Part shown: one piece after another, positions 32,385 to 34,048 of the stretch
Layout: every line of letters begins with the position of its first letter
Numbering within the stretch: position 1 is the stretch's first letter
NCBI GenBank assembly: GCA_001045525.1
Contig: LDWW01000033.1
Location: 1 to 39,787 of the forward strand
Direction of reading: 5' to 3'
Length of the DNA stretch: 39,787 bases
From: Chitinispirillum alkaliphilum
Lineage (GTDB): Bacteria > Fibrobacterota > Chitinivibrionia > Chitinivibrionales > Chitinispirillaceae
The notes under the pieces: generated by a model
What the model was told of the DNA's origin: nothing
Database searches by the model: none
Seen by the model: the letters and a program-made list of their open reading frames with translations, nothing else
Position numbers and translations under genes: made by a program

Positions 32385-32712
32385 TGGTTCCCCCGGAGGT
32401 GATTTATGAATGCACTGACTCACCTCTGGGGTGAAACATGCATAAAAACGTCTGTTTTGAAAACCTCAGGAGATAATTCCTATTTTGATTGTGTCCGGGT
32501 TTTCCCGGAGGTGATTTATGAATGCACTGACTCACCTCTGGGGTGAAACATGCATAAAAACGTCCGTTTTGAAAACCTCAGTAGATGATTTCCAATTTGA
32601 TAGTGCCCGGGTTTTTCCCTGAGGTGATTTATGAACGCACTGACTCACCTCTGGGGTGAAACATACACAAAAACGTCTAAAAACCTCAGGAGATAATTCC
32701 CATTTTGATGGT
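32385..32712. repeat. Three tandem ~112-bp REP-like units downstream of the transposase gene
   Basis: Units start at about 32393, 32505 and 32618 (periods 112 and 113). Each contains an inverted core (GGAGGTGATTTAT), a direct core (TCACCTCTGGGGTGAAACA) and a degenerate third copy (AACCTCAGGAGAT). The first two cores form a hairpin: CCGGAGGTGA (32393-32402) with TCACCTCTGG (32420-32429), 17-base loop. Unit 3 lacks a few bases near 32680. Confidence 0.85.
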
Positions 32713-32791
32713 TTATAATTACTTAGAAAATATATCACTTGCGGATTTAGAGAAATTTAGAAGGATAAAAACAGGGTTGAGTGTGTGCGGG

Positions 32792-33760
32792 TTAGTTTCT
32801 TTCGGCTTGAAGTTTGGTGTTAATCACATCAAATAGTAATTTTCGGTTGGGAATGGCTTTGCTTTTCGATATCATTCTGGATACTGCGGAATTTGAGACC
32901 CTAAGATACCGGGCTAAACTTTCCCCAGAGTAATCAAAGAGGATCGAGCCAAGCGAAGCAAATAATAGTCTTGCTGTTGAAACTGTGTTTGCTCTGCCAC
33001 GAATAAACAGTGCATCATTTTCAATCCCCACAGTTTTTATCACTGCTTGGTGCAGCCTTTCAAGGGTGATATTTTCTCTTATATGGCGAGCAATTTGTGC
33101 CCGGCAAATTAAATCTTTTTTCAAAACAGTTTTCACAAAATGGGAATCTCCGACAACCCATGATTCCGGTTTTGAGAAAAAACCTCTACTCTGGTTAGCA
33201 TTACGTATTTGAGAAATGACCTGGTTATCTGCAGAATCAGACCCCTCTGAGCTAAGCATTATATTTGGTTTGTTAGGGATTTCATTTGAGCTTGGGTTGT
33301 CCTTTTTTGTGTTCTGCTTATAGATGTTGAAATGTCCGCTCCACTCATAATCACCTATATTGAATGATGTACAATACCCACTTCTTATTGGGTTGGAATG
33401 TATATAGTGAATAACCTGATTCAGTGCAATATTTTCATCTACAATTATGGAACTAAAACGGCGATAAAAAACCACACCCTTACGGTTAGTAACCCTATTG
33501 AAATGTTTTGCGTAAACAGAATTTAATCTTTGCATAAATTTGGAGATGGAGTGAAAGCTGGATTTGACCAGAAGGTGATAGTGGTCATCCATTACAGCCC
33601 AGGCGTAACATTGGAATGAAAACATTTTAAGTGAATTGTGCAGTTCTTTGAGAAAGAAATCCTTCAGTTCCTTGTTTGAAAAAATATCAACTCCGAAAAC
33701 TCCCCTTGAGGTTACTTCATAAAACACTTCTGGTACAATGATTCTCGGTTTTGTCGACAT
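32792..33760 (-). CDS. REP-associated tyrosine transposase (RAYT, Y1_Tnp)
   Basis: 322 residues. Y1-type HUH nuclease at about 1-140: opening RIIVPEVFYEVTSRG, metal-binding HUH motif H60-Y-H62 in VMDDHYHLLVKS, catalytic Tyr119 in HYIHSNPIRSG. The C-terminal ~140 residues contain a DnaA_C-like helix-turn-helix (FDYSGESLARYLRVSNSAVS), as in many RAYTs. Such proteins cut and join single-stranded DNA at palindromic REP sequences and are kept as single, domesticated genes. Both flanks carry copies of one palindromic repeat family, in line with that biology. AGGA upstream fits the ATG at 33760. All catalytic residues are present, so it may be active. Confidence 0.9.
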   Translation of the reverse strand: MSTKPRIIVPEVFYEVTSRGVFGVDIFSNKELKDFFLKELHNSLKMFSFQCYAWAVMDDHYHLLVKSSFHSISKFMQRLNSVYAKHFNRVTNRKGVVFYRRFSSIIVDENIALNQVIHYIHSNPIRSGYCTSFNIGDYEWSGHFNIYKQNTKKDNPSSNEIPNKPNIMLSSEGSDSADNQVISQIRNANQSRGFFSKPESWVVGDSHFVKTVLKKDLICRAQIARHIRENITLERLHQAVIKTVGIENDALFIRGRANTVSTARLLFASLGSILFDYSGESLARYLRVSNSAVSRMISKSKAIPNRKLLFDVINTKLQAERN

Positions 33761-34048
33761 AAAGTTATCCTGTGTGTGTGGGGCGCACTTAGGGGAATTG
33801 TCATGAAATCGTTTTTACAAATAGCAATAACCGGACCACCCCTTTCTAAGTCCCCTCATTTCCTCATAAAATCACCTCCGGGGTAAACACGCACACCTCC
33901 ATCAGCCAAGTGGAACACAAATTGCACACTATTTTCCTCAAAAACGACAAATTTAAACCCTTTAACCTATTTCCACCTACAAGATTAGCTCAATTCTTAT
34001 ATTATACTCATTAACCCATAAAACTCGGTTTCACTGTAAGGAGAAAAA
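33761..34048. other. Intergenic region between the divergent transposase and M16 peptidase genes
   Basis: Contains one core repeat copy at 33869-33884. AAGGAG at 34037-34042 is the ribosome binding site of the peptidase gene; a TATTATACT stretch near 34000 is a possible -10 element without an obvious -35. Confidence 0.4.
33869..33892 (+). repeat. Single REP-like core on the 5' side of the transposase gene
   Basis: AAATCACCTCCGGGGT (33869-33884) followed by AAACACGC. The tandem units on the other side have TCACCTCTGGGGT then GAAACATGC, so similarity extends beyond the core. It is in the same orientation as the direct cores at 32420, 32532 and 32645, bracketing the gene. Confidence 0.75.

Follow-up and report, generated by a model that had tools for sequence, protein, structure and literature searches.

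Do a transposase gene of Chitinispirillum alkaliphilum and the palindromic repeats on both of its sides belong together as a REP/RAYT unit? The first-pass annotation of the window, i.e., of the whole stretch of 39,787 nucleotides that was analysed, had described an HUH/Tyr transposase gene with the catalytic residues H60, H62 and Y119, and both statements hold, as the ORF on the minus strand (Table 1) encodes a protein of 322 aa that matches Pfam Y1_Tnp with 42.8 bits (cut-off 23) and contains all three residues in the alignment together with a Y...NP motif (YIHSNP). The neighbouring ORFs look like CapA-like and M16-peptidase-like genes, judged by reading of their translations alone. The best curated name for the protein is NCBIfam REP_Tyr_transpos with 70.4 bits, which is below its cut-off of 80, whereas transpos_IS200 scores 18.6 bits. 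Furthermore, when 20 family members were combined in a profile, DnaA chains matched at positions 236-320 of the profile (E 0.003), and there was a weak match to the E. coli TnpA_REP structure 4er8 (E 0.79). Seven of the 20 members match Bac_DnaA_C at E up to 0.1, the window protein itself being without a match. Using a structure model of low confidence (pLDDT 57, pTM 0.38), which served for the two domains only, Foldseek returned the transposases of ISDra2 and IS608 as best PDB matches, 4er8, and the DNA-bound DnaA domain IV structures 3pvp and 1j1v (TMt 0.79-0.80, rmsd 2.2-2.4); the tail is tentatively placed at approximately residues 231-320. Profiles and model point to a Y1/HUH transposase that carries an extra DnaA-like C-terminal tail, which is predicted to bind DNA.

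Downstream of the gene lie three direct repeats, the second of which is 90% identical to the first and the third 62% (ungapped). Each of them contains an inverted pair of cores (32391/32420, 32503/32532 and 32616/32645), and four of these six cores are exact copies of TCACCTCNGGGG, the other two having one mismatch. Folded as single-stranded DNA, hairpins 1, 2 and 3 have stems of 12, 11 and 10 pairs with -10.5, -8.9 and -8.3 kcal/mol, which corresponds to z values of -3.5, -3.8 and -3.2 against shuffled sequences, 0, 0 and 1 of 200 shuffles being as good. Upstream of the gene a related core is present at 33872-33883, 112-123 bp before the start codon, so that the repeat family indeed occurs on both sides of the gene as had been proposed. 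This single upstream core is on the plus strand, downstream of the gene both orientations are found, and neither the upstream core nor the array unit folds better than shuffles (z 0.0). The similarity that was said to extend beyond the core, GGGGT(G)AAACAYGC, recurs in the first two 112-bp units but is slightly different in the third. Allowing up to two mismatches, TCACCTCNGGGG occurs 27 times in the window compared to 7.2 (sd 2.7) expected, and none of 100 shuffles has as many; many of the 27 matches belong to the tandem array at the window end, an array that local slippage or recombination probably enlarged. Rfam gave no match at gathering score.

Table 1. Position and basis of the features of the transposase locus and of the array at the window end.
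Feature	Position	Strand	Basis
RAYT/TIRYT-like Y1 (HUH/Tyr) transposase gene, 322 aa	32792-33760	-	ORF call, profiles, protein tree
HUH motif codons, H60-Y61-H62	33575-33583	-	residue alignment
Catalytic tyrosine codon Y119, motif YIHSNP	33404-33406	-	residue alignment
Putative C-terminal helical domain, approximately residues 231-320, DnaA domain IV-like	32801-33070	-	profile and Foldseek, inferred placement
Three direct repeats, 112-113 bp each	32376-32487, 32488-32599, 32601-32712		repeat comparison
REPIN-like hairpin 1, inverted core pair, 17-nt spacer	32391-32431		core scan and folding
REPIN-like hairpin 2, 17-nt spacer	32503-32543		core scan and folding
REPIN-like hairpin 3, one stem mismatch, 17-nt spacer	32616-32656		core scan and folding
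Single upstream core with extension common to 112-bp units	33869-33892	+	core scan
Inverted core TCATCTCAGGGG, just ahead of the tandem array	39454-39465	-	core scan
Tandem array of CCACTAAATCACCTCNGGGGTAGAAA(n) with variants, 10 units, most of 26-29 bp	39510-39787	+	repeat comparison

The whole window genome of 4.43 Mb contains 31 exact matches of TCACCTCNGGGG (reversed control 0), of which the surroundings of the gene contain five, the window-end array nine and the end of contig C24 14, the other three being singles on C2, C4 and C15. About two matches are expected by chance (11 fixed bases, both strands), and all three singles are inside ORFs of a simple ORF call. The extended core with up to three mismatches gave 28 matches, namely four beside the gene, ten in the window-end array and 14 at the end of C24, and none elsewhere in the window genome. 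Hence, the repeat is not spread through this genome, and all 28 matches have the very distribution, next to the gene or within the array, that the first-pass annotation had named as speaking against its idea. Over 139 columns, the end of C24 and the final 136 bases of the window align at 97.8%, besides other repeat-shifted alignments, and therefore the two contig ends are probably parts of one array. As far as can be concluded from translations, the joined array would be located between convergent phosphoglucomutase-like and dynamin-like genes. Of 23 loci obtained for phosphoglucomutase relatives, 22 were examined; none of these has the array beside the gene, and they contain one isolated core. 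That the window genome has the repeat at two places only would be in line with a coincidence, both the 112-bp repeats and the array then being local minisatellites that have nothing to do with the gene.

Against such a coincidence stands the distribution of repeats around homologous genes. The flanks were surveyed for 70 of the 111 listed protein matches, namely those of the window genome and those whose loci had been retrieved, leaving aside L063 and L065-L067 as weak and the pieces that had not been fetched, and the scan used a GGGGAC(A/G)G-type motif instead of the full GGGGWSAS consensus. Within 500 bp, 16 genes have the core, 35 the GGGGAC(A/G)G-type motif, 19 neither and none both, the rate of positive shuffled flanks being 0.14% for the core and 3.6% for the motif. 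In a tree of the 57 proteins with 200 aa or more, all ten core-bearing rows are within one group of 14 rows (support 99/100), which comprises no TIR-bearing row. Together with eight shortened copies, which were placed by similarity and not by the tree, these 14 rows make up a clade of 22 genes, and the core flanks 16 of the 22 but 0 of the 48 others, whereas the GGGGAC(A/G)G-type motif flanks 0 of the 22 and 35 of the 48. When the flanks were set to 200, 300 or 1000 bp, 12, 16 and 16 of the 22 have the core and 27, 33 and 35 of the 48 the TIR motif, without any crossing. An upstream core within 500 bp is present in 15 of the 22 clade genes, and for 14 of these 15 the distance from the nearest core to the start codon is 77-223 bp. 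Six clade genes are without a motif match in their flanks. Among them, L047 has a variant repeat on both sides, CCCCGGGGATGA and TCACCCCCGGGG, L068, L124, L153 and L158 have only pieces that look decayed by eye, and L121 has none. The split in repeat type follows the protein tree, and the flanking repeat is supported as going with the clade of the window protein across four genera. The local minisatellite without a tie to the gene was rejected on the partition of the flanks, and we give this reading hardly any credence, the more so as strict hairpins are confined to five genomes of the clade (see below). The window genome itself also has four paralogous TIRYT-like genes, L036, L037, L038 and L039 (on C16, C11, C12 and C4, respectively), with inverted GGGGAC(A/G)G-type repeats, that of L037 being GGGACGGACC; the repeats of the four paralogues diverge after their shared part.

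Across the phylum, the strict hairpin pattern was searched in 167 genomes, and the protein search covered 150 of them, not the 17 added later. The protein has a match in 23 of the 150 genomes. The strict hairpin is present in 5 of 150 and also 5 of 167 genomes, with no hit of the reversed pattern, and the counts are 1 in the window genome (G000), 3 in G006, 8 in G008, 1 in G011 and 19 in G016. These five are the genomes with the best protein matches among the 150 searched. Exact tests for the co-occurrence of hairpin and gene gave p ~1e-9 over the phylum, where 17 of the 162 other genomes lack a protein search, and p 2e-5 inside the family of 24 genomes, both uncorrected for relatedness. The length of the hairpin spacer varies between genomes. 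Counted in 45 genomes, the core TCACCTCNGGGGT occurs 48 times in G016, 30 in G011, 28 in the window genome, seven in G008 and twice each in G006, G009 and G017, once each in eight genomes and not in the remaining 30 (reversed control: 3 altogether). G001, which belongs to the same genus as the window genome, has no core, and the three placed of its five protein matches are TIR-type. An exception to the pairing of repeat and gene is G009, which contains an intergenic array clearly of the same repeat family, while the protein search of its genome gave no transposase match. Between the array cores of G009 (L080, C121, ~1500-1620) there is a second palindrome-like stretch, GTGACTTAATACGTTAAATCA with variants. 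Eight other matches (L079, L084-L089, L096) include several that look coding by eye. Among the named genomes, the scan with the single protein gave no relative, and the search with a small alignment gave four loci, one of them a distant Sulfurovum match.

In two relatives the repeat behaves differently from the window genome. Only 15 of 208 repeat matches are inside ORFs of at least 80 aa (G016 3/97, G011 7/44, G008 5/34, G006 0/16, window 0/17), although the same loci are 70-86% coding; the loci were picked around matches, and arrays make matches non-independent. In G016 and G011 the repeat is dispersed, with most copies in intergenic positions. Intergenic spread together with the gene, as originally proposed, is seen in these relatives but not in the window genome, and it is this dispersal that rescues the REP/RAYT idea. 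The gene has been multiplied as well, with seven pieces of 80-91% nucleotide identity in G011 (cut by contig ends), a pair of 92% in G016 and five copies of 74-86% in G008. Past the upstream repeat, homology among copies of the same genome falls off, which is clear in G016 and G008 and less sharp in G011. The repeat, placed near the upstream limit of copy homology, is found beside genes of the window clade but not beside any other gene examined. Several copies in G011, G008 and G016 and the Y1 fold, which the model of the window protein shares with IS608 and ISDra2, would also fit a typical IS200/IS605 insertion sequence with terminal hairpins. However, the copies are 74-92% and not near-identical, the protein has 322 aa with an extra domain and scores 70.4 bits with REP_Tyr_transpos versus 18.6 bits with transpos_IS200, and a classification assigns the Y...NP motif to class 2 (PMC6006769). 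On family scores, length and divergence of the copies, the insertion sequence was rejected, and we consider it very unlikely. An exact empty site was found at none of 21 M16-peptidase relatives, 0 of which have the gene or the core upstream, with less than 1.4 kb of upstream sequence in five of the 21 (351 bases in G001); the CapA-like neighbour is adjacent in none of the 21.

Regarding the structure of single repeats, pairing of the outer arms is approximately what the column composition gives, and therefore covariation is no proof of structure. The extended arms AGTCACT/AGTGACT of the G016 consensus were dropped as structural proof, their pairing not exceeding the column expectation, and covariation of the inner stem TCAYC/GRTGA is not claimed, the commonest listed combination in G016 being T with G, which is no strict pair. 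Arrays in G016 (L191, L192, L202 and others) have direct periods of 44-46 and ~60 bp beside inverted pairs at mostly 40-42 bp. GT[AG]G is found 5' of the core in 16 of 96 cases in G016 (above the 8% of shuffles), 0 of 43 in G011, 0 of 33 in G008, 2 of 16 in G006 and 3 of 17 in the window. GTAG, the guide of canonical REPs, coincides partly with the core's 3' end in 8 of the 17 cores of the window, by unit sequence those of the array, and in G016 and G011 GTGA is the commonest at this end.

Among known systems, the canonical RAYT/REP pair and REPIN (Nunvar, 2010, PMC2817692; Bertels and Rainey, 2011) share with the window clade an HUH/Tyr enzyme next to mostly intergenic, clade-specific pairs of inverted repeats, the Y1 HUH/Tyr residues with the Y...NP motif, and inverted unit pairs folding as hairpins. 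In contrast to the canonical pair, the GTAG foot is not conserved across the repeat family, the protein has an extra C-terminal domain, and several gene copies exist in G006, G008 and G011, whereas RAYTs are, according to PMC8049555, single-copy, not self-copying genes, the exact function of which it calls unknown. Dispersal as in canonical systems is absent in the window genome and present in G016 and G011. Compared to IS200/IS605, the clade differs in its extra domain and divergent copies. TnpA_Y1 subclass 2.1 has HTH/Bac_DnaA_C tails according to Quentin (2018, PMC6006769), where a search for REP-like sequences found none for it; there it is also equated, with probability, with TIRYTs flanked by GGGGWSAS repeats and with Bertels group 1. 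TIRYT and subclass 2.1 resemble the window system in the long Y1 protein, the HTH/Bac_DnaA_C-like tail, the Y...NP motif and the inverted repeats around the gene, and the GGGGAC(A/G)G-type repeats of the own-genome paralogues are near the published GGGGWSAS. The difference is in the repeat, as the tested TIR motif is found at 0 of the 22 clade genes, which instead have CCCCNGAGRTGA/TCAYCTCNGGGG, often as inverted hairpin pairs, in contrast to the lack of REP-like sequences stated in PMC6006769. Plural copies alone are not new, since subclass 2.1 is listed there with a mean of 1.9 copies that are 49% identical. Likewise, moderately abundant TIR families with many dimers or clusters, some self-complementary, are already known from TIRYT/TIRtron (Di Nocera, 2013, PMC3733652). 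Among the papers listed, none treats REPs in Fibrobacterota, judged by title and abstract. Placed by domain and motif and not by the authors' tree, the window protein resembles the TIRYT/subclass 2.1 branch rather than GTAG-type RAYTs. Since the clade fits TIRYT in its protein but not in its repeat sequence, and since the GTAG foot is not conserved, we file it as a RAYT/TIRYT variant and not as canonical REP/RAYT. From the complete REP/RAYT unit claimed at the outset, the RAYT-like Y1 transposase and the tie of the repeat to its clade are retained, but not a dispersed REP in the window genome or a conserved GTAG foot, and the tail is TIRYT/2.1-like.

The clade is not uniform in its catalytic residues. 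Tyr119 is kept in 6 of 15 clade rows covering the site (one of the window genome, three of G011, two of G016), and HUH and Tyr are intact in the six window, G011 and G016 rows that cover both. It is replaced in all nine G006 and G008 clade rows covering the site, by H in four and W in one of G006 and by A in three and S in one of G008, and five G008 clade rows have Q in place of H60. Outside the clade, the Tyr site is lost in 1 of 47 covering rows (L149). As the four G008 tree rows share Q60 and form one group (100/100), the catalytic loss probably came before the multiplication of the copies in G008. Pairwise dN/dS (Nei-Gojobori) is 0.10-0.15 at dS 0.9-1.4 among G008 clade copies and 0.11 at dS 1.8 for one G006 pair, the high dS values being near saturation, and 0.16-0.24 among intact G011 and G016 copies. 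The G006 and G008 proteins without the cutting site are still kept by strong purifying selection. G008 also encodes an intact RAYT-like protein, L308 (30% identity, not placed in a clade), and the IS200-like L299, so that these could help in trans. Another transposase family with several copies in G008 (L133, L134, L138, L139, L150, L151) has E for the second HUH histidine in six of six copies, with dN/dS of 0.12-0.19 among the four copies compared.

Preserved proteins that lack the tyrosine, the DnaA-like tail and the upstream core in 15 of the 22 clade genes, mostly 77-223 bp before the start, would also agree with a protein that is chiefly a self-regulating DNA-binding protein, with the upstream repeat as its putative site, the other copies as decoys or host-regulatory sites and transposition in the past; a similar idea of REPIN as promoter and RAYT as regulator is printed as speculation in PMC8049555. 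However, HUH and Tyr are kept in the six rows of the window genome, G011 and G016, the latter two being the genomes with the most dispersed repeats, and the window repeats are mostly downstream of the gene. We regard such an operator function as the chief role as possible but unlikely, although it does not fully exclude a transposase-repeat pair. The latter is the explanation that we consider likely, i.e., a pair of REP/RAYT type from the TIRYT (subclass 2.1-like) branch with a predicted Y1/HUH transposase, a DnaA-like tail and the clade-specific repeat core TCAYCTCNGGGG. In this pair, the tail would bind the double-stranded repeat and the HUH domain the single-stranded hairpin, Y119 would nick the repeat, and repeats, sometimes the gene together with repeats, would be copied to new sites, as relatives and homology suggest. 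In G006 and G008, which have lost the cutting site and keep the protein by selection, it would probably be a repeat-binding protein only. Tentatively, and with considerable doubt on our side, one may even imagine that within one RAYT-like branch the cognate repeat switched outright from a GGGGAC(A/G)G-type TIR to a hairpin-forming one, and that two genera lost the nuclease residues and kept the protein, multiplied in one of them, as a repeat-binding family, most genes having the repeat or a variant upstream, which would be a regulator-operator network.

The analysis ties a hairpin-forming, partly dispersed repeat to a branch of RAYTs for which one survey gives no REP-like sequences (PMC6006769) and another gives inverted-repeat families (PMC3733652). 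The relatives with the lost catalytic site are the most interesting thread, as they set up a natural comparison among related bacteria, in which the protein either has an intact cutting site or lacks it and is still under strong purifying selection. Copies that are probably unable to cut and yet are preserved would make a DNA-binding role directly testable.
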